Position numbers and translations under genes: made by a program. The notes under the pieces were generated by a model. It worked only from the letters and a program-made list of their open reading frames with translations. It ran no database searches and was not told where the DNA came from. From the NCBI RefSeq assembly GCF_028583425.1, contig NC_072793.1, positions 173,205,681-173,269,680 on the forward strand: 64,000 bases of DNA. Reading direction: 5' to 3'. This DNA is from Eublepharis macularius (taxonomy: Eukaryota; Chordata; Lepidosauria; Squamata; Eublepharidae). Of this stretch, positions 2,614 to 26,590 are shown in pieces (position 1 is the stretch's first letter; every line of letters begins with the position of its first letter).

Positions 2614-2619
2614 AATAAA
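2614..2619 (+). promoter_or_regulatory. Candidate polyadenylation signal, gene A
   Basis: AATAAA lies about 45 bases after the last finger remnant of gene A. The same hexamer is kept at 17296-17301 behind gene B. Inference only. Confidence 0.4.
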
Positions 2620-2662
2620 TATAATACCAATTAAAACAAAAGGATGACCATGTTATCTATGT

Positions 2663-5838: not shown

Positions 5839-6135
5839 CTATGACTGTGCATGAATTTTGGCAGGTTGCGAGGCGTCCAGGAAGGAATGAGCTGCTGCTA
5901 GGCTCCTGTGGCCCTTATCCTCCCCTGGCAATGCTGATTGCCCAGCATGAATTTGCCTCCAGGACAGGCTCCACTGGCCAGGGGTCTTGGAAGCTGTTTT
6001 CCTCACGGGCAAAGAGTAGCAGTAATGGGGGGGGGGGAGGGAATGGAGAGCGGTAGATGTGAATTTCCTGAATTTTGCAGGAGGTTGAAATAAATGGCCC
6101 TTGAGTTCCCTTCCACCTCTATGCTCCTGTGTTTC
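5839..6135 (+). repeat. CR1-like LINE 3' tail
   Basis: The phrase GTGAATTTCCTGAATTTTGC followed by a short poly-purine stretch and CTTCCACCTCTATG resembles the reptile CR1 3' end, also seen intact at about 52790-53095. Copies lie at about 19400-19705 and 31555-31800. Confidence 0.55.
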
Positions 6136-6329
6136 TTTTTTTCTCGTAATGTTTTCATTTGGTGCCAGAAGTCCTTGAACAGAAAGACAAAGCCCAAAAA
6201 AGTGTGTGTGGGGGGGCATCCTAAAGCTGCTCACAGACCCTAAAAATGAAGAGCTTGACGGAATAAAATCAAACCCCGTGCATTCTGTTCATGAATGAAT
6301 GGATCTATTCATTCTCTCTCTCCCTCTCC

Positions 6330-6490
6330 CTCCCCTTTGTAACGGCTGCGATTCTATCCAAGGGTTAAAGGGAGGGAGGTCACAATCCTAGAGAGGCCAG
6401 AGAGTGGGGCTGGGCGAGCCGTTTCCTGCCCCTCCGATCGCAGCAGCCGCCTTTGGTTTTCTCCGGTCGCTGCTTGAATGGCTGAATCTG
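6330..6490 (+). promoter_or_regulatory. Gene B putative promoter and non-coding first exon
   Basis: A GC-rich block with GGCTGCGATTCTATCC, GGGTTAAAGGGAGGGAGG and CCGTTTCCTGCCCCTCC motifs is kept in all four complete cassettes. It ends at a strong donor (CTG then GTGAGC at 6491). No TATA box is visible. The start exon acceptor is 3.7 kb downstream. The exon call rests on conservation and the donor only; the transcription start is not resolved. Confidence 0.5.
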
Positions 6491-7045
6491 GTGAGCTTGG
6501 AGGGGCGTTCGGGGGGGAGATGTGGGGTGTGTGTGGGGTGTTGCAATGCAGAATCGCGAACAAAGAGAAAGGAGGGGGTGAGGTGGGAGAAAGCACCCCC
6601 CCCCCCCCGGGGTCCTTCCTCTTGGATCAGAAAGAACCAAAGAAATGCCTGGGGAATAAAAGAGCTGCAGGCGGCACGAAGAAGAAAGGCGTTGTGCTTA
6701 TTGGGGGTTTGGACCGGGCCGGGGAGCAAGAGATCGAGGCTGGGGAGCAGCGGGAAGGGCAGCAGGAGATTTGTGCGAGAAAGCGCCCCCCCCCACACAC
6801 ACGCACACCCCTTCTGCCCCCTCTGCCTTTTTTTTTAGCCTGTCCCCGGCGGGGCTTTCCTTCTTTCCTCTGCAGTCTCCTCAACAATATTCCCCAACAG
6901 TAATTTTTTCGCTCTTTCGAAAACTGATGCAGGTGGGTTTGAGAAGACAGCCCCCTCCCCTTCTCTTGAAGTCCTCTAATGTTGGAGTTTAACCCCCTCC
7001 CTCCTCTGTGTATATATGGAGGGGGGATCCCTCCGGGTTCCGTTA
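6491..7045 (+). other. Gene B intron 1, conserved G/C-rich leader region
   Basis: Homopolymer-rich sequence (runs of G, C, T and a CA stretch) is shared with the C, D and E cassettes. It produces several long frames on both strands, but none is conserved as protein between cassettes because the homopolymer lengths differ. Treated as non-coding. Confidence 0.5.
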
Positions 7046-7049
7046 GATC

Positions 7050-7265
7050 AGGAGTCCACTGTGTGGTTTGTGTGTGGTGAGAGCACTCAAGTCAGTGTTG
7101 ACTTATGGCGACCCCTGGTGGGGTTTTCATGGCAAGAGACTAACAGAGGTGGTTTGCCATTGCCTGTCTCTGCAACTCTGGTCTTAGTTGGAGGGGTGCT
7201 GTCCAGTTACTAACCAAGGCTGACCCTGCTTAGCTTCTGAGATCCGACAAAATCAGGCTCACCTG
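7050..7265 (-). repeat. 5S-rRNA-derived SINE, reverse orientation
   Basis: ACCCTGCTTAGCTTCTGAGA is the reverse complement of the 5S rRNA internal promoter region. It is preceded by the GACTTATGGCGACCCCTGGT body typical of reptile 5S SINEs. The copy in the second cassette is at about 20757-20990. Confidence 0.75.
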
Positions 7266-7604
7266 GGCTATTCAGGTCAGGGTCCACAGTGTGGGCACCT
7301 CTGAAATTCTGACAGGGGATGGTGGCCACATCCACAGGAGGTGGAGCTAACCATAAAATGGTCGCCACTGAAGCCTCATGAGGCAAATTTCAGTAACAGT
7401 TAGGTGTCATTAACTCCTATTGAAATCAGTGGGACATAAATCAGTAATCAAGACAAAATCTTATTATTTTGCTGGGATTGTGCCTTATGTGTTCTGACAT
7501 TACCCTTCTTGCGTCGTTTAAAAAAGAAACTAGTGCTTTAAAACATTGTCTTGCAAACACACAAAATAAGTATACCTGTTGAGCTAACTAAGAAACCCTC
7601 GTTG

Positions 7605-7785
7605 GGCAGTTTCAGGTGGGTAGCCACGTTGGTCTGTAGTAGAAGGGCAAGATTTGGGTTCAGTGGCACCTTAAAGATGAACTAGATTTGCAGAGAATGA
7701 GCTCTCAAGAGTCGGAGAGTCAGCTCTGACTCGAAAGCTCATACCCCGGAAATCTAGTTGATCTTTAAGGTGCTACTGGATCCAC
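7605..7785 (+). repeat. Penelope-like element fragment
   Basis: This fragment carries GACTCGAAAGCTCATACC followed by CTTTAAGGTGCTACTGGATC, the signature of reptile Penelope-like terminal repeats. The CUGANGA half of a hammerhead core is not recognisable here. Copies lie at about 21318-21500 and, shortened, at 34735-34850. Confidence 0.55.
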
Positions 7786-8825
7786 TTGTTCCTCTGTCTT
7801 CATTTTGCCGGCATTTAGCACACTTGCAAGAGGAAAAGGGACGACTGCTTCGTCATCTGGCTGTCTCCTTTACATGAGCCCTTCTCTCATGAACCCAGCC
7901 ATTTTGAATGTGCGCAATTACTTGTAAGAATGCCATTTGGGGCGGAAAGGCTGGTGGGAGCTCCTTGCAGACGTGTGTGGTAAGAGGGAGCTTGGCCAGC
8001 CTGGCCTCTTAGCCAGGCAGCCCAATCATTTCTAATCAGAACCAAGCCCCCTTGTACCTTTAGAAGATCACTCTGTTCTGTGCACAGATACAGTACTTTC
8101 CATAGAGGAGAGGCAGCTCTCTCCTGTATGGAGGCCACCTCCTGGCCTTCCGTCATGGTGCCAGTGGTCGTGGAGGGCCCTCCGTGGCCTCAGATGGGGA
8201 GTGAGGGGGCTGGGTTTCATCAACCCTTCCTCTCCCCTGCCTTTTGACCATCAGAATCTACCTTCCTCCCCAGCCAGGTTCTGGAGCACTCCTTTTAATC
8301 CCTGCCCTCATTTCACTACCCCCAACCCGTCCGGTCTCACCCCCAAAGTGCTGCACAGCACCTAAGCTAATGGTTGCAGCATTGCGCATCCCAGCCCTTG
8401 GCCACCCACTCCCACCTCCTCAGAGCCTTTGGTGGCTTCTGCCCTGCCTGCACCACAATTGCAGCTACACTCCTAAGGCTGTTCGGGGCCGGCTTCACTA
8501 CCCTGCTGGAGTGGGATCTGCAGCCTGGGATGGGGCTGGCACCCATGTCTGAGGCACCGCGGCATGTCAGCTCTTGGCATCATTAGGCAGCGCTCACTGA
8601 TTCCTGCTGTGGCTGCCGTGCCTGGGGATCACCGCAGCTGCTCAAAGCTGCCTGCCCTGAGGCTGGCCTCTTGGGGCTGGCCTGGCTCTGTCAGCCTCCT
8701 GGCTGTGAGAGAAGGCTACGTGGTCCTCCATAGGGTTGCTGTCCGGGCTCCAGATGGGGAGAGCAGTCGCTCCCCTGGCTGCATCTCAAGTCCAGGCCAG
8801 AACTTGTCTCCAACCTATGTCGGCC
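7786..8825 (+). other. Gene B intron 1, unassigned
   Basis: About 7887-8800 is GC-rich and nearly identical to about 21600-22530, and recognisable in the D cassette (about 34920-35440). Frames in it differ between copies. I cannot assign it to a repeat family or an exon. Confidence 0.35.
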
Positions 8826-9150
8826 CTATGAATGAAAGACCTCCTTTTATTGAGCCAAGCCATCTCGTTTTAGGTCTTCCTCTTTTCCTATTGCCTTCTA
8901 CTTTTCCTAGCATTAGTGACTTTTCCAGAGAATCTTGTCTGCTCGTGATGTGACCAAAGTACGATAGCCTCAGTTTTATTATTTTTGCTTCTAGGGAAAA
9001 TTCAGGCTTCACTTGATCTAGTACCCACTTATTTATCTTTTTGGCTGTCCATGGTATCCGCAAAACTCTCCTCCAGCACCACATTTCAAATAAATCGATT
9101 TTCTTCCTGTCTGCTTTCTTTACCATCCAACTTTCACATCCATACATAGT
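8826..9150 (-). repeat. BovB (RTE) LINE 3' end
   Basis: The minus strand encodes the C-terminal part of a BovB reverse transcriptase, with YGCESW, FEMWCWRRVLRIPW, YFGHI, DSLEKSLMLGK and RKRGRPKTRWL in order. A 19-base stretch present in the second copy (about 22555-22575) is missing here. Truncated at its 5' end and not functional. BovB is characteristic of squamates. Confidence 0.9.
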
Positions 9151-9835
9151 AATGGGGAATTACCATAGTTTGGGTGATATAATATGGATGTAATATGACA
9201 GAGGGGATACCATAAAACTCCACAAAGTAGTTAATATTGGCACATAATCAGCTGGAGCGGGGAAAGGGAGTTTTTTTAAAAATGAAGAGAAAAGACCCGG
9301 CAAGGGGGAATAAACAGACACATAAACTTAGAGAAAGTCTGAGTGGGGAGGGAAGATAGAGAATAAAAAAATAGAGAGAGGGAATGCTGGGGGGACGATC
9401 ACATACAGAGGAAGCCCAAGCTCAGGGGGGGAGGGGGGGAAGAGAGAAAATAAAAGGAACACAATGTTGATGGGGGGGTGGGGGGGGAATGGATTCCGAA
9501 TAGGAAGAGGGCCAAAGGCAGGTTTCCGTCGGAATGCTCAGCTCCAATCAGCGCTTCACACTTCCCCTTCTGCCGGCTCCCCTCCTCGCCCGCTTCGTGG
9601 CTTGCTCCCATTCAGGCAGGCCAACGTGGTCCTGGACCACAGCCACACTGGTGACAACAGGAAGGCGGCCAGCTTGAATGGGTAGGGCTTTTCTTTCCCT
9701 GCACATGCAGGGGGAGAACTAGGGAGGTTGCATTGCTGACTTGTGCAGCAGAGAGTTTTTGTTTCTCTCTCCCCATCCGACACTGCTTGTCCAGGCCTGA
9801 ATGGGTTGGAAGAAAGGTACTGTTCAAGATGCCTT

Positions 9836-10049
9836 ACTTTATTATGCAGCAACAATCCTGCCACTGTTGCTGCAGCTGCCTCTGAACCACGTTTTTAAAA
9901 TACCAAACACCCCATCTGACCTCCAATGGCCAATCAGAAGACCTGCTGGGGAAACGTCCTGACCCCGCCCACTTTTTTTACCCCACCCACTTTCTAAAAC
10001 CACTTGGTGGGCTCCATTGCGCCCGTGGGCACCATGTTGGGGAACCCCA
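9836..10049 (+). repeat. hAT-type MITE fragment (3' half)
   Basis: CCAATGGCCAATCAGAAG, the repeated CCCGCCCACTTT motif and the end GGGCACCATGTTGGGGAACC match the 3' half of the better preserved element at 61684-62048. Copies are at about 23508-23720 and 36737-36932. Confidence 0.6.
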
Positions 10050-10190
10050 CATTAGATCATTCACCAGACTTGCTGGACTAGGTTTGCCAACCCTCAGGTG
10101 GCGCACGGAGATCTCCCGGAATTACAACATCTCCAGAGATCAGTTCCCTTTGAAAAACAGCTCCACTTTCTTGCTTGTTTTCCATCCCAG

Positions 10191-10276
10191 GCCACAGCAG
10201 AAAGTCACCTTTGACATCTTCGCCATCGTCTCCTCCACGTGGTGAAATGAAAAGAGCCGCCATGCAGCCCACTCAG
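10191..10276 (+). CDS. Gene B start exon (coding 10247-10276)
   Basis: An acceptor (CATCCCAG) and a donor (CAG then GTACGA at 10277) bound an 86-base exon. The first ATG in the frame that joins KRAB-A is at 10247, giving the ten residues MKRAAMQPTQ and ending in phase 0. The same exon, boundaries and frame recur at 23862-23947 and 37066-37152, and in altered form at 48001-48086. Start choice is inferred from conservation; the frame is open upstream, so an earlier start cannot be excluded without transcripts. Confidence 0.75.
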
Positions 10277-10842
10277 GTACGAGGACGGGGGTGTCACTGG
10301 AGAGATGTGAAGCAGACGGCAGGGACGTCTCCATCTTTGTTACAAAGTTCTGTTACTATCAATTTTGCATTCTCATTTGGGGAGAGAAGAACTTCCTGAT
10401 GCTTGGGTACTCCTTCTCCCATGATCCCTGGTGGCAGGATGTGAGGTCATTCCTTCCCTGCTTCCGTGGAGAGGGAGGTCTCCTTTCTTCAGTTCTTTTC
10501 CTACCTCTTTGCGAGTGCAGGACTCTACTGGAGCTCTGACTGCTTGTAAAATGGATAAAATTTTGTTTCCTTTTTTATTTGTAATTCAACGTTACCTTCT
10601 AAAAGAATATATAGTTAAAATAGGTAACGGCAGTAAAACAACAGTTTTTAAAAACTAAAAAGGTGAAACCTAAAAACAAGAAAGCCAGCTCACGCGTTCA
10701 TTAACTGCTAGACTGAACCCACATTTAAACAACAAATCAATAAAACTGTAAAAAAAATTCACTGAAAGGAACCCCCCAGTGGTGCATACAAGTGAGCATA
10801 TGGATCTGCCTTTTACTTAATCAGAAGGCTGGCCTATCTGAG

Positions 10843-11073
10843 AGCGGGACCACAAGTGACGCCTGACACAGGTTGGACACTAGTCAGCTTCCCTCAAGTT
10901 TTGATGGGAAATGTAGGCATCCTGGTCTTGCAGCTTGGCTCTCTGACTGCTGTCCAATGGATTTTCAGCTGTCACTTGTCCAACATTCCGCCAAGCTGCC
11001 TACATTTCCCATCAAAACTTGAGGGAAGCTGGCAAGTGTCCAACCTGTGTCAGGCGTCTCTTGTGGTCCCGCT
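10843..11073. mobile_element. Non-autonomous DNA transposon (MITE) with 77-bp inverted ends
   Basis: The two ends (10843-10919 and 10997-11073) are reverse complements with 3 differences in 77. The element is flanked by CTGAG on both sides (10838-10842 and 11074-11078). The second cassette has the uninterrupted site at about 24508, with a single CTGAG. It therefore inserted after the cassettes split. Superfamily not assigned. Confidence 0.88.
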
Positions 11074-11514
11074 CTGAGTCTCCCTGAACTGGCAGCGGAT
11101 CTTTCCCATCACCTCCTACCTGAGACTTGGAAGGGGAGATGCCAGAGACTGGGACTGTATGAATGTATGCCAAGCAGGGGCTTTATCTTGGGGCCATGGT
11201 CCTTTACTAATGAAACAGTAAATGCTTGTGAAGCCAGAGGCGAGTGAAAGCTGCCCCTTCAGGGGAAGTGCAACCCTTCCAGGAGAGGCTGAATACTCAA
11301 GATGATCTTGACCAGCAGCACCTCAGCCTTGCCTAGGATCAGTTTATGGGCCTGGATCTGCCTGTGGACCTTCTCCCAGCCCCTGCTCAGGACCTCCACA
11401 GACTCACTGAGCTCCGCTGCTGAGGAGGAATAGCAATGGGTATCCCGCACTTGTTCATGGCTCCCCCCTCCAGATCTCCGAATGATTTCTCCCAGTGTTT
11501 CCTTCTCCTTCCAG

Positions 11515-11641
11515 AGTCCCGTGTCCTTTGAAGAGGTGGCTGTGCATTTCACCCAGGAGGAGTGGACCCTGCTGCGCCCAGCCCAGAGGGCTCTCTACAA
11601 GGAAGTCATGCTGGAGAATTTTGGGAACGTGGCCTCTCTGG
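11515..11641 (+). CDS. Gene B KRAB-A exon
   Basis: This 127-base exon is the standard size for KRAB-A. The acceptor is CTTCCAG and the donor is GTGAGG. It encodes [15 protein letters not shown], then [18 protein letters not shown] and GNVASL. The residues needed for TRIM28 contact in the family (EV near the start, EEW, MLE) are present. It enters in phase 0 and leaves in phase 1. It differs from gene C's KRAB-A by one base (His to Arg, AVHF to AVRF). Confidence 0.95.
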
Positions 11642-12012
11642 GTGAGGATCCTTTTCTCCTTGCTATGCAGAGTGACTGTAAGGAGGTCCTTAGTGAGGAA
11701 GGTCACAGTCCGGGTGTCTGCCCTGGGCCAATGGCTGATCTCTGCCCCCCTCCATGATCCTTCCTCTGAAATGGGAGGGGTTGTGGGTTCTCTTTGCAGA
11801 GAGGGAGCCCCTGCCTGGCAGTCCTGTGTCTCGGCCCCGTGAGATGCTTCATCTGGAGAAGGTGAAGCAGTCTAAGCAGGGGCTTCCTTCTGGTCTGGGC
11901 CTTGCCTTACCTGGGCTGAGATGTGAGTGTGGAGGGAACTCTGCTGGATTCTTTGCCCCTGATTTGTTCTCAATTGGCATCTCAATCATTCAAGTCGGGA
12001 GGGGGGGGGAAG

Positions 12013-12780
12013 TCAATGAATAAATATTGAATAAATATTTATAAATATATAATAAGTAGTGAAGTGCAAAGTGATAGTGCTATTAAATACAGTAAATACT
12101 AATTCAATAAATATTCGATAAATACAATCAGTGATACAGACCAAAGTGGAGCAACCGATTTCCACGCACCTAGAAGAAGAAATAAGCAAGTAACGTTATT
12201 GTAAGAACTTCAGACTGTATTACTTCTTTTCACTCCCTTAGAAGAAGAAATAAGAAAAAGACATTATCGCAAGTACTTTGGACTGTATTACTTGTTTGGT
12301 TTAGCTGTTGCCATTCCTATTTTACAATAATAATAATAACATTTGATTTATATACCGCCCTTCAGCACAACTTAATGCCTACTCAGAGCGGTTTACAAAG
12401 TATATCATTATTATCCCCACAGCAAAACACCCTGTGAGGTGGGTGGTACAGAGAGAGCTCCAGAGAACTGTGACTAGCCCAAGGTCACCCAGCTGGCTTC
12501 AAGTGGAGGAGTGGGGAATCAAACCCGGCTCTCCAGATTAGAGTCCACACTCTTAACCACTATGCCAAACTGGCTGTTCTATGAGGTTCTCTTACTATGT
12601 ATTGTACTACTGTTTGTTGAACTATTCCATAGATGTGAATTTTCTCTGTTTAATCTGACTATATTGATTGTATTTATTGAATGCTTATAGAGTTAGTATT
12701 TCCTATATTTATTAGCACTGTCACTTTGCACTTTACTATTTATTATAATTATAAATATTTATTCAATATTTATTCATTGA
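12013..12780. mobile_element. AT-rich inverted-repeat element with nested SINE
   Basis: Arms of about 118 and 116 bases (12013-12130 and 12665-12780) are reverse complements, beginning TCAATGAATAAATATTGAAT. Between them lie two tandem copies of a stretch of about 60-70 bases (from about 12173 and 12241, each starting AGAAGAAGAAATAAG) and a reverse-oriented SINE. Same structure at 25462-26229 in gene C. It sits in the KRAB-A/KRAB-B intron. Confidence 0.75.
12326..12575 (-). repeat. tRNA-derived SINE inside the inverted-repeat element
   Basis: Reverse complement of the SINE type at 2663-2912, with the tail end (ATTTATATACCGCCCTTC) first and the tRNA-like head last. It is also present in gene C (about 25775-26024), so it inserted before the cassette duplicated. 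Confidence 0.85.
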
Positions 12781-13048
12781 TTTATTTTCCCTTGACTTGT
12801 GGGTAACCACTTTGTTTCTTGTCAGTTTCGAGTCGGGGAGGCTTTGTTCTGGTTCTGGCATTTCAATCTCAGCTGGGCAGGGAGCAGGCACAGAACTGCC
12901 AGTACCAGGTGGGTGATTCTTGACCTCCATCCCAAACCTATTGCTTGTCTTTTTTGTATTTTTGGAGGACTACAGACAACCTGGCTTGGAATCCTTGGAT
13001 GTATGTGCATACGAGAAATAATTATTTCCTTTTTTTCTGATTAAAAAG

Positions 13049-13141
13049 CACCTCAGATTGCAAAACCTGACCTCATATCCTGGCTGGAAAAGGAGCAGGA
13101 GTTGTTTCTCCTGAGCGCTAATGAAGAGGAGGGATTGGCAG
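13049..13141 (+). CDS. Gene B KRAB-B exon
   Basis: A 93-base exon entering and leaving in phase 1. It encodes PQIAKPDLISWLEKEQELFL then SANEEEGLA, the reptile form of the KRAB-B box (KPDLISWLE core). The donor is CAG then GTAGCT at 13142. Compared with genes D and E the exon ends 12 bases earlier, because the ancestral donor position reads AT instead of GT. Confidence 0.88.
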
Positions 13142-13339
13142 GTAGCTGTTTTGATCTGTCTTGGGACTGTGACCTGCCTGTGCTTCCTTCCATGGGCTAG
13201 TTGGTTTCTCATTTGCTCTGAGATCCCTTTAACTGGAGGTGCTAGATATTGAATAGGGAACCTGGTGCATGGAAAGCCAAAGAAACTTTAGACAGCACCC
13301 ATGTGCTCCTGCATACATCTATGGTGTGGAATACCATGG

Positions 13340-13975
13340 GCAGTTCTGGTCACCACATCTGTGAAAGGACATTGCAGAGCAGGAAAAAGTCCAGAAGAGG
13401 GCAACTAAGATGATTAGGGGGGTGGAGCACCTTTCCTGTGAGGAAAGGCTGCAGAGTCTGGGACTTTTCAGTTTAGAAAAGAGACAGCTGAAGAGAGGGG
13501 ACATGATAGAGGTTTATAAAATTACAGATGGGGTAGAGAGGGTGGACAGAGGTAACTTTTTCTCCCTCTTCCAAAATATTAGAATTCAGGGGCATTCCAA
13601 AAAGCTCATGGACAGTAGATTCAGGAAGGACAAAAAGAAATTCTTTTTTACAGAACGGTTGATTAAAATGTAGAATTTCCTGCCCAAGGATCTCAGGATG
13701 GGCACAGGCACGGACGGCTTTAAATGGGGATTAGACAGAGTCCTGGAGGAGAGATCTGTCAGTGGTAACTTACCAGCCACGGTGACTGAAGGGAACCTCC
13801 ACATTCAGAGACTGTGAACATCTGAATTAGCAGTGCAGGGGGGCAACTTCAGGGGAAGGCCTCGGCCTCTGTGCCTCGTGGCTGGCCCTCCAGAGTAGCA
13901 GGTTGGCCGCCGTGTCAGCAGGATGCTGGATCTGACGGCGCACTGGTCTGATCCAGCAGGGCTGTATGTTTGTTC
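13340..13975 (+). repeat. CR1-like LINE 3' region
   Basis: A frame with CEERLQSLGLFSLEKRQLKR then GDMIEVYKI matches the conserved 3' segment of CR1-type elements of birds and reptiles. Gene C keeps only pieces of it (about 26785-26995) after several deletions. Confidence 0.7.
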
Positions 13976-14189
13976 TTCTGCCAGCAAAGCAAAGCATGTG
14001 CTTTACTACAGAGACATGACTCCAGACATTGCTCCCATAAGTGCAATTTTTCTCCCCCAGCATAGAGCAGTGTTGTAAGTGGTACTGGAGAGCCTGGTAC
14101 AAAAATACACACTCTGAAGAGAAACCAAGCATTGCACATAAATATTTGTCAACAGGATAGAACACCAATAGAAAATTCAACTTCTTGCA

Positions 14190-14420
14190 GAGGAATAATA
14201 GAATCGTAGAATTAAAAATGTTGAGAGGGGCCAAGAGACCCTCCAGTCCACACAGCAGGATGACCTAAAGCATCCCTGAGAAATAATCATCCAGTCTCTG
14301 CTTAAACACCACCAAAGAGGGAGAGTCCACCACATCTCTAGGCAACTGATTCTGCCACAGAGCTGCCATGGTTAGAAAGAGTTTTCCCAATATTCTGCCA
14401 ATACCTCTGTATTCTCCTGA
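14190..14420 (+). repeat. CR1-like tail fragment
   Basis: GAATCGTAGAATT, AGACCCTCCAGTCCACACAG, CCAGTCTCTGCTTAAACACC and CTAGGCAACTGATTCTGCCA follow the consensus order of reptile CR1 tails. The last part persists at about 27000-27130 in gene C. Confidence 0.55.
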
Positions 14421-14614
14421 AAATAACAGCTATTCCTATACTTCAAAATAATAGTCATATTTCCTCTCAAAGACTGCTGAAATTGAGTTTATATGCATGT
14501 TTGGAACAATAGACTCTACCCCCCCAGGTTGAATCGATACACAAGATTTTTCTCCCATTACAGATGCTAATTTATTGCATTTTGCACCCCTGCTCTGTCA
14601 AGCTTCTATCTTTT

Positions 14615-14700
14615 CCCACTCATGTCTGAGGAAGGGAGCTTTGACTCTCGAAAGCTCATACTCTTTAAATCGAATAGGCCTCTAAGGTTAGTAACTTGGT
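14615..14700 (+). repeat. Penelope-like fragment with hammerhead-type core
   Basis: CTGAGGA (14626-14632) fits the CUGANGA box. A GGGAG/CTCTC stem follows, then GAAA (14650-14653) and GCTCATAC. This is the layout of the hammerhead ribozymes known in Penelope-like elements. It is followed by the family's CTCTAAGGTTAGTAA-like end. Confidence 0.55.
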
Positions 14701-15334
14701 GAAACAGATTCTGGGCATCCTCCCCCTCGTCCGTCCCTGGCTGGAGGTAGATGGATGGGTGTTGGCATGGCATGGCATGCTGGTCCTTCTGTATTTTCTG
14801 CTGATCGTCAGAAACAGACAGGATCACACACATTTCCATACACACCTCACACAAACGGTCAGCTCCTTTTCTGATCTCCCACCCCCATGTGAGAGAAAAG
14901 AACCGTTAGCCAATCTGGGTCTTGAGTTCTGGAGTCCAAAGCCCGCCAGAACAAGCGGGCCCAATAGAGAGGAATTAACAAATGTAAGGATTGCTGTGTT
15001 TTCCCTTCCAGTTGTAAAAGGGACTCATCCGGAGGGCATGGTGCTTTTCCCAGGCTGTGTTACACAACTGGGCTAGTGAGTGTCCATAAACTGTCAAGAC
15101 CCTCCGCCCGGCTGCATTTCTCATTCCTGATAGGGATTCATTGGCTTTCCCGTACACATTCTGGCAACTTCCAGTTCAGCTTAGAGAAGTGTTGCTCTGC
15201 TAATAACAGTTGCAGAGAAAAGCTTTTGCCCAGTTATTATTATTAACTACTGATCATCAGTAGGTTAAGTTCAATCCCTAGTGTCATACGCTCTTATTTT
15301 AATTGTGTTCATATCAGGTTTCTGTTTCTTTCAG

Positions 15335-16728
15335 TGGGAGAGACATGGAAGTCAGTGAAAGAAATGGAAAAGCATGAGGTGATGGAGAAAGAAGATACAT
15401 TTCCAGGTGTGAAAGAGAAGGCTGGATGTTATGAAGGAGTGCAGAGGGAGGAAAGACACCACCGGCATACAGGAAGAAATACTTGCTGTCTTTTACGGGG
15501 TGATGACATTCCACTGCTTCAAAAAAGATGCAAAGCAGAAAGCAGAAATGAGCGCAGTAGAAGTGAAAAAAGAACCTCTGAAAATCCCCATATTAATATG
15601 CTTTTGAAAACCGAGAATGGAGAGAGAATGTGTAAATGGCCAGAGTGCCGAAAAACCTTCAGTCACGTTGGACACCTTAATATCCATCAAAGAGTTCATC
15701 TAGAGGAGAAGCCATATAAATGCCCAGAGTGCGGGAAAAGGTTTGGACAGAAAGATCATTTAACATCCCATCAAAGAATTCACACAGGGGAGAAACCCTA
15801 TAAATGCCTGGTGTGTGGGAAGAGCTTCAGTGAGATCAGAAAACTTACAGTCCATCAGAGAATTCACACAGGGGAGAAACCATATAAATATCTAGATTGT
15901 GGGGAAAGCTTTGCACAGAAACATATCTTAGTGTTCCATCAACTAATTCACATAGGGGAGAAAACATATAAATGCCTGGGTTGTGGAAAAATTGTTAGTC
16001 ACACTGAAGACCTCACTATCCATCAAAGAATTCACACAAGGGAGAAGCCATATAGATGCCTAGAGTGTGGGGAAAGCTTTGGGAGTAAAGCTAATCTAAC
16101 ATCTCATCAAAGATTGCACACAGAGGAGAAACCATATACATGCCTAGAGTGTGGAAAAACCTTTAGATATAACGCTAAACTAACATCCCATCAAAGAATG
16201 CACACAGGGGAGAAACCATATAAATGTATAGAGTGTGGAAAAAACTTTGGATGGAAAGCTAACCTAACATCCCATCAAAGAATGCACACAGGAGAAAAAC
16301 CATATAAATGCTCCGTGTGTGCGAAAAGTTTTGCGTGGAAAGATAAGCTAACTTCCCATCAAAGAATGCACACAGGAGAAAAACCATATAAATGCTCCGT
16401 GTGTGCAAAAAGTTTTGCGTGGAAAGATAACCTAACTTCCCATCAAACAATTCACAATGGGGAGAAACCACATAAATGCCTAGAGTGTGGAAAAGCGTTC
16501 AGGCAGAAGGGAAATCTTACTGTCCATCAAAGAATTCACACAAGGGAGAAGCCATATAAATGCTTGGAGTGTGGAAAAAGCTTCCGTGAGAGAGGAAAAC
16601 TTACTGTCCATCAAAGAATTCACTCGGGGGAGAAGCCATATAAATACCTGGAGTGTGGGAAAAAATTTTGGGAGGAAATATACCCATACTACCCATCAAA
16701 GAATTCACACAGGGAAGAAACTATATAA
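15335..16728 (+). CDS. Gene B: C2H2 zinc-finger terminal exon
   Basis: With the exons at 10191, 11515 and 13049 this completes a 547-residue KRAB-ZNF protein. The linker ([15 protein letters not shown] onward) is about 100 residues, then twelve finger units. Unit 1 lacks its first Cys (WPEC) and unit 4 has Tyr for Cys (YLDC); the other ten are canonical. Fingers 9 and 10 are near-identical tandem copies (AWKDKL and AWKDNL). Fingers 3-8 match gene C fingers 12-17, so nine fingers present in C are absent here. From about 16635 the sequence switches to match gene A, including the same one-base-longer G/A run and off-frame tail ending at 16728. Likely nuclear repressor; targets unknown. Confidence 0.95.
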
Positions 16729-17240
16729 ATGCCTGGAGGGTGGGAAAAGCCTTGAGGGTGGGAAAATGCCTGGAGGGTGGGAAAAGCCTAGTGTTCCATC
16801 AACTAATTCACATATGGGAGAAAAGCTATCAACACCTGGAGCATGGAAAAACTTTCAGTCACAGTGGAGACCTTACTCTCCATCAAAGGATTCACACATG
16901 GGAGAAGCCATATAAATGCCTACAGTGTGGAAAAGGCTTTGGATGGAAAGCTAGCCTAATATCCCACCAGAGAATTCACGTGGGAATTACCACATAAATG
17001 CCTGGAGTGTGGAAAGAGCATAAGTGAGACTGACAGTCTTATTGTACATCAAACAATTCACAAAGTGGGGAAAGTATATAAATGCCTGGAGTGTGGAAAA
17101 AGCTTCGGGTGAAAAGATAGCTTAGTGTTCCATCAACGAATTCACATGAGAGAAAAGATATAAATGCCTGGAGTGTGGAAAACATTTCAGTAACAGTGGA
17201 CACCATACTTCCCATCGAAGAATTCACATGGGGAGAAAAA
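16729..17240 (+). pseudogene. Abandoned 3' zinc-finger remnants of gene B
   Basis: Finger-like units behind the gene B stop match those behind gene A almost base for base. One local difference is a small tandem duplication of a GGAGGGTGGGAAAA motif at about 16733-16790. They are read out of the main frame and several lack zinc ligands. Confidence 0.75.
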
Positions 17241-17295
17241 CAAATACCTAGATTGTGAAAAATGCTGGTCAAAGTGGACGCCTTGCTTTCCATCA

Positions 17296-17301
17296 AATAA
17301 A
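17296..17301 (+). promoter_or_regulatory. Candidate polyadenylation signal, gene B
   Basis: AATAAA at the position equivalent to 2614-2619 behind gene A. Confidence 0.4.
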
Positions 17302-17344
17302 TATAATACCAATTAAAACAAAAGGATGACCATGTTATCTATGT

Positions 17345-17606
17345 AGAGCCAGTTTGGTGTAGAGGTTAAGAGCACGGGACACTCATCTGGAGAGCTGGGT
17401 TTGATTCCCCACTCCTCCACTTGAAACCAGCTGGGTCACCATGGACAAGTCACAGTTCTCTGGAGCTCTCTCAGCCCCACCCACCTCACAGGTGTTTTGT
17501 TGTGGGGATAATAATAACATTGTAAATCACTCTGAGTGGGCATTAAGTTGTCCTGAAGGGTGGTATATAAATTGAATGTTATGTTATTATTATTATTATG
17601 TTATTA
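17345..17606 (+). repeat. tRNA-derived SINE
   Basis: Second-cassette copy of the SINE at 2663-2912, with the same head and a longer TTATTATTA tail. Confidence 0.85.
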
Positions 17607-17611
17607 TTAGT

Positions 17612-17812
17612 AGGACCCAACTATGCATTTTTTACATTATTGAATACTTAATCTTTAGACTTTTGCTTCAGTTGTGTCTTCAGATTTAAGGTTGGTTCCA
17701 GATTTCTACATTCCTAATCCTATTGTTTATTGGATGTCTCATCCTGTTATTTGTACTGACATCCGCCTTGAGTCCCATTGAGAAAGGTGGACTATAAATC
17801 ACATAACTTCTT
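17612..17812 (+). repeat. LINE (L2-type) 3' tail
   Basis: Second-cassette copy of the tail at 4021-4205. It directly follows the SINE because the 1.1-kb block present between A and B is missing here. Confidence 0.6.
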
Positions 17813-19400
17813 CCTTCCTTGTTTTTGGATTGCTAAAGGAGAGGACAGACTGCAGCTTCTCCTGCTTCAAAAGGGCCTGCCCCTCATCAAGTGCTGTTCA
17901 CGGGTGGCTCTTCATTTATTTATTGTTTGCTCTTCCCACAAGTGGACTCAGAGCAGATAACCACGTTTGAATCTACATAATATTACCATTTAAATCATAA
18001 AAACTTACAATTTAGCAATAAAAGGAACAGCTCTAACAGTCAGCCCATATTACCCATTTCTGAAATGTTTCTGGGAGTGGTCCAACAGATGGAAGGAAAA
18101 AAAGAAAAAGGGAAGGGTCCCTGTCTAGGTGGCTGGCTGGAAGGCTCATCCATAGCCCAGCCTCAACCATATGCATCATGAAACCTGGGCCCAGCCCTTG
18201 CCTGCACCTAGTGGAAAGAGCAACCCCACTTGCGTGCCTGGAGATCAGAAGCAGTTGGCATCAGACGACGCTGGTGAGACCACACAGGGATGGATACATT
18301 GCAGCTTGTAGCCCTGGAATGTTTACGGTTTCCTTGTGACGTATTGTGAGGCATGTTGAATGGGAGTTACTAGTGGTGTGTTTTAGTGGTTCTGGGGGCA
18401 ATTATTACCTAGAGTTGGATGTATGAAGAATGCACCATTCCAGTGCGGATGGGAGCTCATAGCTATAAGGGCAGCAGTGATCAAAGATGGCCAGTATCTG
18501 GCATGGATGCTCTCTGCCTATCTAATTCTGTAGCATCCTGAACATTGATGGTACAAGGGCCGCTCTTTTCCCCCATGGTTGCACAAATACTATGCAATCC
18601 CAGATCAGCCCTGGTCAGTATTTGGATGGGAGTCCACCAAGGCAGGCCAGGGTTGCCACACAGAGGCAGGCAATGGCAAACCACCTCTGAATGTCCCTTG
18701 CCTTGAAACCCTGCATGGTCATCGTAAGTTGCCTGGGACTTTAAAACTATAAAAGGAGTTGAAAGGGGAGGGACAGAAGCGAGGAAAGGAGAGGGGCAGG
18801 GTGGGCACAAGGCACCAATCACTGCACGGTGGGCAGGTCAAGGTAAATTTTTAGGGTGTAAGCTTTCAAGAGTCAGAACTTTCTCCATAAACAGATGACC
18901 CCTCTTGCCTTTGCTTCTTCCGGGATTGCTATTTCTCTTTCAGGCAGAGGCAGGACTGTGCCTTCAGTATTCAGACGATCCTTAAACAATGCAAGCACAG
19001 AGACCTGCCGGATTAGCGATTGGAGCCAACAGGCACAGTTCTAGTTTCCAAAGAGATTTAATCCCCAGGGTTAAACCTGGAGCAATTGGATGCCAGGGTG
19101 AGGAGAGGGCCCAGCATTTTCCCCAAAGGCCCTCATGGATGCCACACACAGATTTTTAAAAAGAGTTTCTCATTCATGTGGTTGCAAGGGTGTGCTCAAC
19201 ATTGCCTCCTGAAATCCTAGAAAGCAGAGGAGATTCGGAGAGATCCCCGGCAGGGAATGGGTAAGCCAGTTTTTAAAGGAGACCAGCTTTCTGGCCTCCC
19301 ATCCGGAAGCCAAAGCCTTTTATGTAGCACTTGCTTTTGAGTTTCCTCTTAAGGATTATTTCTTTGGAAGGTTTTAAGAAGAGGCGATATGGCCATCTGA
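17813..19400 (+). other. Intergenic B-C interval
   Basis: Near-identical to 4206-5838, including a 5S-derived SINE fragment at about 18580-18740. No gene recognised. Confidence 0.5.
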
Positions 19401-19705
19401 CAGCCATGCTGCTTCTATGACTGCGTATGAATTTTGGCAGGTTGCGAGGCGTCCAGGAAGGAATGAGCTGCTGCTAGGCTCCTGTGGCCCTTATCCTCCC
19501 CTGGCAATGCTGATTGCCCAGCATGAATTTGCCTCCAGGACAGGCTCCACTGGCCAGGGGTCTTGGAAGCTGTTTTCCCCACGGGCAAAGAGTAGCAGTA
19601 ATGGGGGGGGGGGAGGGAATGGAGAGCGGTAGATGTGAATTTCCTGAATTTTGCAGGAGGTTGAAATAAATGGCCCTTGAGTTCCCTTCCACCTCTATGC
19701 TCCTG
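19401..19705 (+). repeat. CR1-like LINE 3' tail
   Basis: Second-cassette copy of 5839-6135, nearly identical over its length. Confidence 0.55.
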
Positions 19706-19891
19706 TGTTTCTTTTTTTCTCGTAATGTTTTCATTTGGTGCCAGAAGTCTTTGAACAGAAAGACAAAGCCAAAAAAAGTGTGTGTGGGGGGGGGCATCCT
19801 AAAGCTGCTCACAGACCCTAAAAATCAAGAGCTTGACGGGATAAAATCAAACCCCGTGCATTCTGTTCATGAATGAATGGATCTATTCATT

Positions 19892-19999
19892 GATGCAGAG
19901 GAGTTAGCCGTGTTAGTCTGTGGTAGCAGACTAACTAAGAGAACTTGATTCTCGAAAGCTTATGCTACAATAAAATTGGTTAGTCTTAAAGGTGCTACC
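19892..19999 (+). mobile_element. Penelope-like fragment inserted next to gene C promoter
   Basis: A 108-base insertion flanked by a perfect 13-base duplication GGATCTATTCATT (19879-19891 and 20000-20012). Gene B has the empty site at about 6300-6312. It contains TCTCGAAAGCTTATGCTACA and GTCTTAAAGGTGCTACC, the Penelope-like signature. It lies about 35 bases in front of the conserved promoter block of gene C. Confidence 0.85.
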
Positions 20000-20033
20000 G
20001 GATCTATTCATTCTCTCTCTCCCTCTCCCTCCC

Positions 20034-20189
20034 CTTTGTAACGGCTGCGATTCTATCCAAGGGTTAAAGGGAGGGAGGTCACATTCCTAGAGAGGCCAGG
20101 GAGTGGGGCTGGGCGAGCCGTTTCCTGCCCCTCCGATCGCAGCAGCCGCCTTTGGTTTTCTCCGATCGCTGCTTGAAAGGCTGAATCTG
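20034..20189 (+). promoter_or_regulatory. Gene C putative promoter and non-coding first exon
   Basis: Near-identical to 6330-6490, with the same GGGTTAAAGGGAGGGAGG and CCGTTTCCTGCCCCTCC motifs and the donor GTGAGC at 20190. Its upstream side differs from gene B by the 108-base insertion. Confidence 0.5.
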
Positions 20190-21317
20190 GTGAGCTTGGA
20201 GGGGCGTTCGGGGGGGGGGGGAGATGTGGGGTGTGTGTGGGGTGTTGCAATGCAGAATCCCGAACAAAGAGAAAGGAGGGGGTGAGGTGGGAGAAAGCAC
20301 CCCCCCCCGGGGTCCTTCCTCTTGGATCAGAAAGAACCAAAGAAATGCCTGGGGAATAAAAGAGCTGCAGGCGGCACGAAGAGGAAAGGCGTTGTGCTTA
20401 TTGGGGGTTTGGACCGGGCCGGGGAGCAAGAGATCGAGGCTGGGGAGCAGCGGGAAGGGCAGCAGGAGATTTGTGCGAGAAAGCGCCCCCCCACACACAC
20501 ACACACACACGCACACCCCTTCTGCCCCCTCTGCCTTTTTTTTAGCCTGTCCCCGGCGGGGCTTTCCTTCTTTCCTCTGCAGTCTCCTCAACAATGTTCC
20601 CCAACAGTCTTTTTTTCGCTCTTTCGAAAACTGATGCAGGTGGGTTTGAGAAGACAGCCCCCTCCCCTTCTCTTGAAGTCCTCTAATGTTGGAGTTTAAC
20701 CCCCTCCCTCCTCTGTGTATATATGGAGGGGGGATCCCTCCGGGTTCCGTTAGATCAGGAGTCCACTGTGCGGTTTGTGTGTGGCGAGAGCACTCAAGTC
20801 AGTGTTGACTTATGGCGACCCCTGGTGGGGTTTTCATGGCAAGAGACTAACAGAGGTGGTTTGCCATTGCCTGTCTCTGCAACTCTGGTCTTAGTTGGAG
20901 GGGTGCTGTCCAGTTACTAACCAAGGCTGACCCTGCTTAGCTTCTGAGATCCGACAAAATCAGGCTCACCTGGGCTATCCAGGTCAGGGTCCACAGTGTG
21001 GGCACCTTTGAAATTCTGACAGGGGATGGTGGGCACATCCACAGAATAGCTTCCACAGGAGGTGGAGCTAACCACAAAATGGTCGCCACCGAAGCCTCAA
21101 TTCCAGTAGCAGTTAGGCATCATTAACTCCTATTGAAATCAGTGGGACATAAATCAAGAATCATGACAAAATCTTATTATTTTGCTGGGATTGTGCCTTA
21201 TGTGTTCTGACATTACCCTTCTTGCGTCGTTTAAAAAAGAAACTAGTGCTTTAAAACATTGTCTTGCAAACACACAAAATAAGTATACCTGTTGAGCTAA
21301 CTAAGAAACCCTCGTCG
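20190..21317 (+). other. Gene C intron 1, leader region with 5S-derived SINE
   Basis: Matches 6491-7604, with homopolymer length changes and a reverse 5S-derived SINE at about 20757-20990. No conserved coding frame. Confidence 0.5.
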
Positions 21318-21500
21318 GGCAGTTTCAGGTGGGTAGCCACGTTGGTCTGTAGTAGAAGGGCAAGATTTGGGTTCAGTGGCACCTTAAAGATGAACTAGAT
21401 TTGCAGAGAATGAGCTCTCAAGAGTCGGAGAGTCAGCTCTGACTCGAAAGCTCATACCCCGGAAATCTAGTTGATCTTTAAGGTGCTACTGGATCCACTT
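21318..21500 (+). repeat. Penelope-like element fragment
   Basis: Copy of 7605-7785, with the CTCGAAAGCTCATACC and AAGGTGCTACTGGATCC motifs. Confidence 0.55.
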
Positions 21501-22529
21501 GTTCCTCTGTCTTCATTTTGCCGGCATTTAGCACACTTGCAAGAGGAAAAGGGACGGCTGCTTCGTAATCTGGCTGTCTCCTTTACATGAGCCCTTCTCT
21601 CATGAACCCAGCCATTTTGAATGTGCGCAATTACTTGCAAGAAGGCCATTTGGGGCGGAAAGGCTGGTGGGAGCTCCTTGCAGACGTGTGTGGTAAGAGG
21701 GAGCTTGGCCAGCCTGGCCTCTTAGCCAGGCAGCCCAATCATTTCTAATCAGAACCAAGCCCCCTTGTACCTTTAGAAGATCACTCTGTTCTGTGCACAG
21801 ATACAGTACTATCCATAGAGGAGAGGCAGCTCTCTCCAGTATGGAGGCCAGCTCCTGGCCTTCCGTCATGGTGCCAGTGGTCGTGGAGGGCCCTCCGGGG
21901 CCTCAGATGGGGGGTTAGGGGGCTGGGTTTCATCAACCCTTCCTGTCCCCTGCCTTTTGACCATCAGAATCTCCCTTCCTCCCCAGCCAGGTTCTAGAGC
22001 ACTCCTTTTAATCCCTGCCCTCATTTCACTACCCCCAACCCGCCCGGTCTCACCCCCAAAGTGCTGCACAGCACCTAAGCTAATGGTTGCAGCATTGCGC
22101 ATCCCAGCCGGCCACCCACTCCCTCCTCCTCAGAGCCTTTGGTGGCTTCTGCCCTGCCAGCACCACAGTTGCAGCTACACTCCTAAGGCTGTTCGGGGCC
22201 GGCTTCACTACCCTGCTGGAGTGGGATCTGCAGCCTGGGATGGGGCGGGCACCCATGTCTGAGGCACCGTGGCATGCCAGCTCTTGGCATCATTAGGCAG
22301 CGCTCACTGATTCCTGCTGTGGCTGCCGTGCCTGGGGATCATCGCAGCTGCTCAAAGCTGCCTGCCCTGAGGCTGGCCTCTTGGGGCTGGCCTGGCTCTG
22401 TCAGCCTCCTGGCTGTGAGAGAAGGCTACGTGGTCCTCCACAGGGTTGCTGTCTGGGCTCCAGATGGGGAGAGCAGTGGCTCCCCTGGCTGCATCCCAAG
22501 TCCAGGCCAGAACTTGCCTCCAACCTATG

Positions 22530-22880
22530 TCGGCCCTATGAATGAAAGACCTCCAAAACGTCCTATCATCGCTCCTTTTATTGAGCCAAGCCATCTCGAT
22601 TTAGGTCTTCCTCTTTTCCTATTGCCTTCTACTTTTCCTAACATTAGTGACTTTTCCAGAGAATCTTGTCTGCTCGTGATGTGACCAAAGTACGATAGCC
22701 TCAGTTTTATTATTTTTGCTTCTAGGGAAAATTCAGGCTTCACTTGATCTAGTACCCACTTATTTATCTTTTTGGCTGTCCATGGTATCCGCAAAACTCT
22801 CCTCCAGCACCACATTTCAAATAAATCGATTTTCTTCCTGTCTGCTTTCTTTACCATCCAACTTTCACATCCATACATAG
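22530..22880 (-). repeat. BovB (RTE) LINE 3' end
   Basis: Copy of the element at 8826-9150. The minus-strand frame is slightly longer (to RWLGSIKGAMIG) because the 19-base stretch lost in the first copy is kept. Truncated and non-functional. Confidence 0.9.
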
Positions 22881-23507
22881 TAATGGGGAATTACCATAGT
22901 TTGGGTGATATAATATGGATGTAATATGACAGAAGGGATACCATAAAACTCCACAAAGTAGTTAATATTGGCACATAATCGGCAGGAGCCGGGAAAGGGA
23001 GTTTTTAAAAAATGAAGAGAAGAGACCCGGCAAGGGGGAATAAACACACACATAAACTTAGAGAAAGTCTGAGTGGGGAGGGAAGGTAGAGAATAAAAAA
23101 ATAGAGAGAGGGAATGCTGGGGGGACGATCACATACAGAGGAAGCCCAAGCTCAGGGGGGGAGGGGGGAAGAGAGAAAATAAAAGGAACACAATGTTGAT
23201 GGGGGTGGGGAATGGATTCCGAATAGGAAGAGGGCCAAAGGCAGGTTTCTGTCGGAATGCTCAGCTCCAATCAGCGCTTCACACTTCCCCTTCTGCCGGC
23301 TCCCCTCCTCGCCCGCTTCGCAGCTTGCTCCCATTCAGGCAGGCCAACGTGGTCCTGGATTTTTCTTTCCCTGCACATGCAGGGGGAGAACTAGGGAGGT
23401 TGCATTGCTGACTTGTGCAGCAGAGAGTTTTTGTTTCTCTCTCCCCATCTGACACTGCTTGTCCAGGACTGAATGGGTTGGAAGAAAGGTACTGTTCAAG
23501 ATGCCTT

Positions 23508-23720
23508 ACTTTATTATGCAGCAACAATCCTGCCACTGTTGCTGCAGCTGCCTCTGAACCACGTTTTTAAAATACCAAACACCCCATCTGACCTCCAATG
23601 GCCAATCAGAAGCCCTGCTGGGGAAACGTCCTGACCCCGCCCACTTTTTTACCCCGCCCACTTTCTAAAACCACTTGGTGGGCTCCATTGCGCCCGTGGG
23701 CACCATGTTGGGGAGCCCCA
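23508..23720 (+). repeat. hAT-type MITE fragment (3' half)
   Basis: Copy of 9836-10049, ending GGGCACCATGTTGGGGAGCC. Confidence 0.6.
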
Positions 23721-23861
23721 CATTAGATCATTCACCAGACTTGCTGGACTAGGTTTGCCAACCCTCAGGTGGCGCACGGAGATCTCCCGGAATTACAACA
23801 TCCCCAGAGATCAGTTCCCTTTGAAAAACAGCTCCGCTTTCTTGCTTGTTTTCCATCCCAG

Positions 23862-23947
23862 GCCACAGCAGAAAGTCACCTTTGACATCTTCGCCGTCGT
23901 CTCCTCCACGTGGTGAAATGAAAAGAGCCGCCATGCAGCCCACTCAG
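23862..23947 (+). CDS. Gene C start exon (coding 23918-23947)
   Basis: Same 86-base exon as in gene B, with acceptor CATCCCAG, donor GTACGA at 23948 and coding MKRAAMQPTQ. It ends in phase 0 and joins the KRAB-A exon at 24950. Confidence 0.75.
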
Positions 23948-24868
23948 GTACGAGGACGGGGGTGTCACTGGAGAGATGTGAAGCAGACGGCAGGGACGTC
24001 TCCATCTTTGTTACAAAGTTCTATTACTATCAATTTTGCATTCTCATTTGGGGAGAGAAGAACATCCTGATGCTTGGGTACTCCTTCTCCCATGATCCCT
24101 GGCGGCAGGATGTGAGGTCATTCCTTCCCCGCTTCCGTGGAGAGGGAGGTCTCCTTTCTTCAGTTCTTTTCCTACCTCTTTGCGAGTGCAGGACTCTACT
24201 GGAGCTCTGACTGCTTGTAAAATGGATACAGTTTTGTTTCCTTTTTTATTTGTAATTCAACGTTACCTTCTAAAAGAATATATAGTTAAAATAGGTAACG
24301 GCAGTAAAACAACAGTTTTTAAAAACTAAAAAGGTGAAACCTAAAAACAAAAAAGCCAGCTCACGCGTTCATTAACTGCTAGACTGAACCCACATTTAAA
24401 CAACAAATCAATAAAACTGTAAAAAAAATTCACTGAAAGGAACCCCCCAGTGGTGCATACAAGTGAGCATATGGATCTGCCGTTTACTTAATCAGAAGGC
24501 TGGCCTATCTGAGTCTCCCTGAACTGGCAGCGGATCTTTCCCATCACCTCCTACCTGAGACTTGGAAGGGGAGATGCCAGAGGCTGGGACTGTATGACTG
24601 TATGCCAAGCAGGGGCTTTATCTTGGGGCCATGGTCCTTTACTAATGAAACAGTAAATGCTTGTGAAGCCAGAGGCGAGTGAAAGCTGCCCCTTCAGTGG
24701 AAGTGCAACCCTTCCAGGAGAGGCTGAATACTCAAGATGATCTTGACCAGCAGCACCTCAGCCTTGCCTAGGATCAGTTTATGGGCCTGGATCTGCCTGT
24801 GGACCTTCTCCCAGCCCCTGCTCAGGACCTCCACAGACTCACTGAGCTCCGCTGCTGAGGAGGAATAG

Positions 24869-25216
<348 letters not shown>

Positions 25217-25461
25217 TGAAGTGGCAGGGGTTGTGGGTTCTCTTTGCAGAGGGGGAGCCCCTGCCTGGCAGGTCTGTCTCTCAGCCACATGAGATGCGTG
25301 GTCTGAAGAAGGTGAAGCAGTCTAAGCAGGGGCTTCTTTCTAGTCTGGGCCTTGCCTTACGTGGGCTGAGATGTGAGTGTGGAGAGAGCTCTGCTGGATT
25401 CTCTGCCCCTGATTTGTTCTCAGCTGGCATTTCAATCTCTCAAGTCGGGAGGGGGGGGAAG

Positions 25462-26229
25462 TCAATGAATAAATATTGAATAAATATTTATAAATATATA
25501 ATAAGTAGTGAAGTGCAAAGTGATAGTGCTATTAAATACAGTAAATACTAATTCAATAAATATTCGGTAAATACAATCAGTGATACAGACCAAAGTGGAG
25601 CAACCGATTTCCACGCACCTAGAAGAAGGAATAAGCAAGTAACGTTATTGTAAGAACTTTGGACTATATTACTTCTTTTCACTCACTTAGAAGAAGAAAT
25701 AAGAAAGAGACATTATCGCAAGTACTTTGGACTGTATTACTTGTTTGGTTTAGCTGTTGCCATTCCTATTTTACAATAATAATAATAACATTTTATTTAT
25801 ATACCGCCCTTCAGCACAACTTAATGCCCACTCAGAGCGGTTTACAAAGTATATCATTATTATCCCCACAACAAAACACCCTGTGAGGTGGGTGGGGCTA
25901 AGAAAGCTTCTAGAAGCTGTGATTGACCCAAGGTCACCCAGCTGGCTTCAAGTGGAGGAGTGGGGAATCAAACCCGGCTCTCCAGATTAGAGTCCACACT
26001 CTTAACCACTATGCCAAACTGGCTGTTCTATGAGGTTCTCTTACTATGTACTGTACTACTGTTTATTGAACTATTCCATAGATGTGAATTTTCTCTGTTT
26101 AATATGACTATATTGATTGTATTTATTGAATGCTTATAGAATTAGTATTTCCTATATTTATTAGCACTGTCACTTTGCACTTAACTATTTATTATATTTA
26201 TAAATATTTATTCAATATTTATTCATTGA
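25462..26229. mobile_element. AT-rich inverted-repeat element with nested SINE
   Basis: Copy of 12013-12780 in the KRAB-A/KRAB-B intron of gene C. The nested reverse SINE is at about 25775-26024. Both copies carry the SINE, so both insertions predate the duplication. Confidence 0.75.
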
Positions 26230-26497
26230 TTTATTTTCCCTTGACTTGTGGGTAACCACTTTGTTTCTTGTCAGCTTCGAGTCGGGGAGGCTTTGTTCTG
26301 GTTCTGGCATTTCAATCTCAGCTGGGCAGGGAGCAGGCACAGAACTGCCAGTACCAGGTGGGTGATTCTTGACCTCCATCCCAAACCTATTACTTGTCTT
26401 TTTTGTATTTTTGGAGGACTACAGACAACCTGGCCTGGAATCCTTGGATGTATGTGCATATGCGAAATAATTATTTCCTTTTTTTCTGATTAAAAAG

Positions 26498-26590
26498 CAC
26501 CTCAGATTGCAAAACCTGACCTCATATCCTGGCTGGAAAAGGAGCAAGAGTTGTTTCTTCTGAGCGCTAATGAAGAGGAGAGATTGGCAG
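26498..26590 (+). CDS. Gene C KRAB-B exon
   Basis: 93 bases, phase 1 in and out, with the KPDLISWLEKEQELFL core as in gene B and EEERLA at the end. The donor is CAG then GTAGCT at 26591. It shares with gene B the early donor and the AT at the ancestral donor site. Confidence 0.88.

Follow-up and report, generated by a model that had tools for sequence, protein, structure and literature searches.

Genes of the locus

The 64,000-nucleotide stretch of Eublepharis macularius DNA analysed here (NC_072793.1, forward strand, C4:173205681-173269680; referred to as the window) covers part of a cluster in which KRAB zinc-finger genes share one strand; one of these, gene B, is the subject of this study. 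The window contains five finger exons (A to E), every one of which is made of 84-bp fingers. Given as stop-to-stop frames, those of A (533-2065), B (15247-16728; 15335-16728 from the splice acceptor to the stop) and C (27148-29385) are located on the plus strand, and those of D (40345-42060) and E (56195-58009) follow on the same strand as the cluster. A, B and C each carry a tandem C2H2 finger array in a single exon (Pfam zf-C2H2, 84-bp units), which is the organization of a KRAB-C2H2 gene; in A, decayed fingers run on past the stop to about 2615. A KRAB-A motif in the same orientation was found upstream of each exon, at −2926 for A (outside the window), 11521 for B, 24956 for C, 37855 for D, and 49617 for E. 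The KRAB-A exons were recognized by motif pattern, not by Pfam search, and their splicing to the finger exons is a prediction. Those of B (11521-11646) and C (24956-25081; both plus strand) were read over 42 codons; the motif of B is preceded by a polypyrimidine-AG and has a GT at its end, with the likely donor GTGAGG inside the last codons.

The switch inside the finger exon of gene B

To compare the three exons around the join, an ungapped register (A = B minus 14663; C = B plus 12570) was preferred over a MAFFT alignment of A, B and C, which set A two fingers out of register. At the 23 sites between 16482 and 16626 where A and C differ, B agrees with C at 20, with A at two, and with neither at one. 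The rightmost C-like site in B is 16626 (CTCGGGG in B and C, CTCAGGG in A) and the leftmost A-like site is 16635 (AAG in A and B, AAA in C), followed by 16646 (TAC in A and B, TGC in C). Taken alone, 16635 would be a weak marker, as it is a single transition; 16646 is stronger because a zinc-binding Cys codon has been lost there in A and B alike. The maximum-likelihood interval for the main switch, C-like to the left and A-like to the right, is 16627-16635 on the plus strand (locations within 5 log units of the best span 16602-16646), and a single switch yielded a log likelihood (lnL) of −67, compared with −351 for an exon entirely of C type and −257 for one entirely of A type. The equivalent positions, again on the plus strand, are 1964-1971 in A, an 8-bp A/C match, and 29197-29204 in C.

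Comparison by 84-base units (B1 being the linker ahead of the fingers) gave the same picture. The best match of B1-B13 was a C unit in 13 of 13 cases (76-84 of 84 bases), and that of B14 was A15 (83/84). Even though A was always granted its best-matching unit, B1-B13 were C-like at 154, A-like at eight and of neither type at six of the A/C-differing sites, and B14 was A-like at 45 and C-like at one. Judged from these counts, the change from C-like to A-like is far beyond chance. A sequence-only reading of this DNA had proposed that B resembles C up to 16626 and A from 16635 onward, with the switch in an interval of ∼9 bases; individual sites, unit matches and likelihood agree on this and on a single sharp switch, and on these grounds the mosaic nature of gene B is confirmed. 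Alternating A and C tracts within the exon were rejected, the best extra tract being one base long and gaining 5 lnL, as was a derivation of B units from D or E, which provided the best match for none of the 14 units. The 17 bases at the join (16621-16637) have one further exact copy in the genome (contig C12, C12:57882733-57882749, minus strand).

The difference extends beyond the array. The heads of B and C are 98.3% identical (A/B 80%, A/C 82.5%), whereas the tails match between A and B (96.5%) and show no match for B/C or A/C. The tail of B (16645-17601, plus strand) is of A type, consisting of the broken last finger in B14, the stop at 16728, decayed fingers and a short interspersed nuclear element (SINE); its sister, the tail of A (2066-2918, plus strand), contains decayed fingers and a SINE and is 96.5% identical over 853 bp. 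When the genome was searched with a 543-bp tail probe, the single other near-identical copy among the matches listed (the best 40 of 665 candidates scored; at least 176 matches) was that of A (99%), and the next best was a finger match of 79%. A small local rearrangement is present in the tail of B at 16740-16800, where a short GGGTGGGAAAA-type repeat stands in place of the A sequence.

The notion of a simple C/A hybrid held for the main switch but not for the rest of the array, which also differs from that of C by two further in-frame joins, both within finger repeats and amounting to minus nine and plus one finger. At 15795-15821 (plus strand; C register +11898 to +12654), B skips nine C fingers and goes from the third finger region of C to C13; at 16354-16363 (plus strand), an extra finger is joined, B10, which combines the head of C19 with the tail of C18. 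A12 and A13 find their best matches in C6 and C7 (78 and 72 of 84), two fingers that B lacks, and this resemblance suggests that the nine-finger difference is a loss in B. The linker as a preferred break site was dropped as an idea, since the three joins fall at different columns of the finger unit (67-74; 75 through 17 of the next unit; 46-55) and 60 of the 84 columns have a base shared by at least 80% of 80 units.

The reading frame of B is intact across all three joins. As C-type fingers continue up to C21 and are followed by the broken finger and stop of A, two C fingers are lost, and the decayed 3′ part of A is predicted to have become the 3′ end of B; the product would carry the fingers of one parent on the truncated end of the other. 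Finger B5 is without its first Cys (TAT for TGT at 15889). By block position, the KRAB exon of B is the C-side one, the sequence itself being uninformative because it is 98-99% identical among A, B and C. Over 415 codons, B and C differ at 21 of 1,002 nonsynonymous and 10 of 243 synonymous sites, and the resulting pN/pS of 0.51 (given without a significance test) is compatible with constraint.

The duplicated block and its divergence

The A-B interval (3995-13443) and the B-C interval (17608-26892; both plus strand) are 95.6-98.5% identical, which bears out the claim of the sequence-only reading that they are near-identical copies. Two collinear copies of a block can be followed, with gaps, from the switch position of A (1964-1971) to the switch in B, and from there to the switch position of C (29197-29204). 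The stretches 2913-3994 and 13444-14304 (the latter opposed by 105 unrelated bases in copy 2) do not align; part of 14494-15285 is common to A and D, and loss in C is therefore most likely. With the 5′ part of the right gene and the 3′ part of the left gene in the middle one, between tandem block copies, B is, on this layout, the junction gene of a tandem duplication. Copy 1 alone contains a 230-bp palindromic element (10843-11072, plus strand; target duplication TCTGAG), which was inserted after the duplication, and copy 2 alone a 121-bp insertion (19892-20012, plus strand; 13-bp target duplication GGATCTATTCATT). The two copies have thus aged independently, an insertion with a target duplication being private to each.

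These features are relevant to whether B is an artefact of assembly in which a single A-interval-C locus was represented twice in a row, once per haplotype, which would yield the same order of A, hybrid and C. Such a join would have to rest on 8-19 bp of identity, and there are no Ns in the window; moreover, the copies differ by ∼1.75%, by several large indels (two with target duplications), and in finger number, and the assembly comprises 2.24 Gb in 72 contigs. An artefact is thus considered highly improbable.

Beside the switch, divergence is equal on both sides, B and C differing at 31 of 1,301 positions to the left (2.4%), and B and A at 17 of 910 to the right (1.9%; Fisher p = 0.46). The latter count leaves out the local rearrangement of B at 16751-16800; including it gives 26/931 by another alignment. 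In the last 234 bases left of the switch, B and C differ at 11, because B11 and B12 are less C-like than the other units (80 and 77 of 84). With a reptile substitution rate near 1e−9 per site per year, the age of the duplication would be of the order of ten million years.

One tract departs from this pattern. At 11659-11974 (plus strand), beside the KRAB exon, B mostly agrees with A rather than with C; over 11550-11990, identities are 431/440 for A/B, 407/440 for B/C, and 410/440 for A/C. On either side, B is like C (197/200 for B/C vs 140/177 for A/B at 11100-11300; 590/601 vs 491/574 at 12843-13443). In C, a divergent tract (25094-25441, plus strand) was found by genome search to be 97% identical to C4:172015555-172015901, 1.2 Mb away on the other strand; with A and B, the tract shares 92% and 91%, respectively. 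Immediately upstream, over 513 bp, the distant relative matches just 86 bp at 93%, whereas B matches 99%. Probably, then, it was C and not B that was converted, by the gene 1.2 Mb away. A conversion of B by A, the first reading of this tract, was set aside because the similarity of the distant relative to C drops upstream, which makes C the likelier recipient; A-to-B conversion combined with conversion from C to the distant gene may also account for the tract. When the 33 B/C differences in it were polarized with D as outgroup, 16 looked derived in B and 13 in C, with four unresolved.

Conversion thus appears to be active at this locus, which lends some weight to the view that no duplication exchange took place and that an older gene B was overwritten by C at its left and by A at its right. 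Two independent tracts would then have had to meet at one site, in addition to the conversion of a ∼10-kb interval, all at a similar age, whereas a single duplication accounts for everything; conversion as the sole cause is hence regarded as highly improbable.

Proposed exchange between finger exons and comparable systems

The origin of B may be envisaged as follows. The ancestral chromosome would have carried A, the interval and C; two copies would have misaligned and undergone an exchange between the finger exon of C on the first and that of A on the second, placed at a linker and with the fingers kept in register. The product would read A, interval, a gene with C to the left and A to the right, interval, and C, with B as the middle gene. 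We assign a probability of roughly 0.68 to B having been created by such an unequal exchange between the C and A finger exons, with the crossover guided by finger homology. The DNA itself presents the mosaic, a tandemly repeated block, divergence that is equal on the two sides of the switch, and A as the sole near-identical tail match found; from these, we infer a crossover that relied on finger homology rather than replicative template switching. Finger homology can align the partners because the arrays hold most of the long A/C matches: among exact matches between the 6-kb neighbourhoods, 54 of 66 with at least 24 bp and 21 of 22 with at least 30 bp lie in the finger arrays. For the same reason, the site of the join is unremarkable. 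A/C identity in the short stretch across the switch is 54/57, and, of 23,772 in-phase 60-bp windows, 98 exceed the best join-spanning window in match quality; the join is thus among the better-matched sites but not the best.

Several observations weigh against an exchange of this kind. Parental identity falls from 45/50 to 168/200 and 315/400 with increasing distance to the left of the join, and is 33/50 and 48/100 to its right. For non-allelic homologous recombination (NAHR) mediated by long interspersed nuclear elements (LINEs), the excerpted text of one study gives a minimum identity of 96% (PMC4344489), and present-day A and C stay below this LINE-pair threshold (∼96%) at the join. The longest A/C matches, of 51 and 48 bp, are not those used. 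The sequence-only reading had also named equal divergence on both sides as a sign of a single crossover, and it was found beside the switch and not in the raw block: there, divergence is non-uniform (247/11,373; eight segments, chi2 p = 1e−6) and became uniform (194/11,102 or 1.75%; six segments, p = 0.14) after exclusion of 11650-11990 (the KRAB-intron tract), 12440-12480 (a SINE-tail cluster) and 16751-16800 (the 50-bp local rearrangement), all picked post hoc with the data already seen. Finally, the support comes from the sequence of one assembly.

As parental identity at the join is modest and below 96%, replication-based template switching, or another short-homology repair generating the same duplication and junction without a reciprocal crossover, is kept as a serious, albeit rather unlikely, rival. 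Uninterrupted A/C identity at the switch is just 8 bp (19 bp if 16635 reflects a later change in C), with 24 bp immediately to the left, and the low parental identity farther out (168/200 left, 48/100 right) would suit such an event. Of the 2,076 exact matches of at least 8 bp between the 6-kb neighbourhoods, 960 come from the finger arrays and 855 of these are in finger phase; in-register landing would thus be frequent for short-homology events as well. Conversely, the strictness of the register, the lack of inserted bases and the two more in-register joins in the exon fit a homology-driven process. The products of the two mechanisms are identical in sequence. Thus, of the earlier claim that B is an unequal crossing-over hybrid in the order A, hybrid, C, the ectopic exchange stands on the DNA, and crossing over itself is the part that template switching could replace.

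The arrangement predicted for the homology-guided exchange has a known precedent in haemoglobin anti-Lepore, in which a hybrid gene stands between the left and the right gene, its 5′ part taken from the right one and its 3′ part from the left one. Gene order and hybrid composition are the same at the B locus. The parent genes of the globin hybrid are more alike than A and C, and the repeat in which the exchange took place here is coding, short and lower in identity; a counterpart of the Lepore deletion was not seen in the one assembly.

KRAB-ZNF clusters, according to excerpts of the respective papers, grow by segmental duplication, with genes of a KRAB exon and a finger exon in tandem (PMC4592553, PMC5363842, PMC12575710); duplication, finger gain and loss, and short conversions are described (PMC5363842, PMC2604467). 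The B locus shares the tandem genes and the finger duplications and deletions between paralogs. In the excerpted review, repetitive fingers are proposed to be prone to illegitimate recombination and to catalyse cluster growth, and a speculation is cited that KAP1/H3K9me3 on the 3′ ends guards against such exchange (PMC4592553). Exchange in finger exons is therefore a known route of KRAB-ZNF cluster growth, of which B is a well-resolved case. In the mouse Chr4 cluster, recombination scars are reported, again in excerpt, at chimeric LINEs and endogenous retroviruses (ERVs) at the boundaries of duplicated portions (PMC12575710), whereas the join in B is inside the finger exon. Whole-finger turnover within arrays, as excerpted from PMC2604467 and, for PRDM9, PMC5351255, has its like in the whole-finger gain and loss of B (minus nine, plus one), but is coupled here to an exchange between two neighbouring genes. 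Among the matches listed in a search of open-access literature, covering titles and the openings of abstracts, neither this locus nor a base-resolved finger-exon hybrid of KRAB-ZNF genes was found, and six recombination terms had zero occurrences in PMC2865497. The B locus thus represents a natural case in which the join is placed to ∼9 bp and both parents and the sister intervals are preserved, and in which exchange occurs at three levels close together, namely from gene to gene, inside the array and, apparently, as local conversion beside the KRAB exon.

In the 264 kb and 40 kb inspected, two recent tandem gene duplications were seen, one of which joins in the finger exon. The other (C4:179840001-179880000, minus strand; 40 kb inspected) involves finger genes with a period of ∼15.5-16.4 kb; its intervals are 95.5-98% and its finger-array stretch ∼91% identical, and no KRAB motif was found in the 40 kb by motif pattern. 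Identity is 89% on one side of an unaligned gap and 98% on the other, and the unit boundary appears to lie between genes. With this boundary apparently intergenic, the finger exon is not the sole site, and the broader proposal of the sequence-only reading, in which it is the site of recombination, is not established. It is doubtful that coding repeats such as the finger arrays recombine when their parents share just ∼84% identity, far beneath the usual limit for NAHR, such that the finger exon and not interspersed elements would be the recurrent exchange site building in-frame hybrid repressors in register.

Another apparent mosaic is gene Z (−18060 to −13800; KRAB at −17855, fingers −15741 to −14901). 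Its KRAB region is A-like (84.6% over 1,432 bp), and the head (84% over 585 bp) and tail (77% over 784 bp) of its finger exon are D-like, with an intronic switch located between approximately −16626 and −16384. Within gene A, an internal repeat of 336 bp includes fingers A5 (1142-1225) and A9 (1478-1561), which do not differ at any of their 84 bases. The cluster is adjoined by a ∼195-bp tandem satellite, the copies of which are ∼95% alike (−96333 to −87761 and −79422 to −77853).
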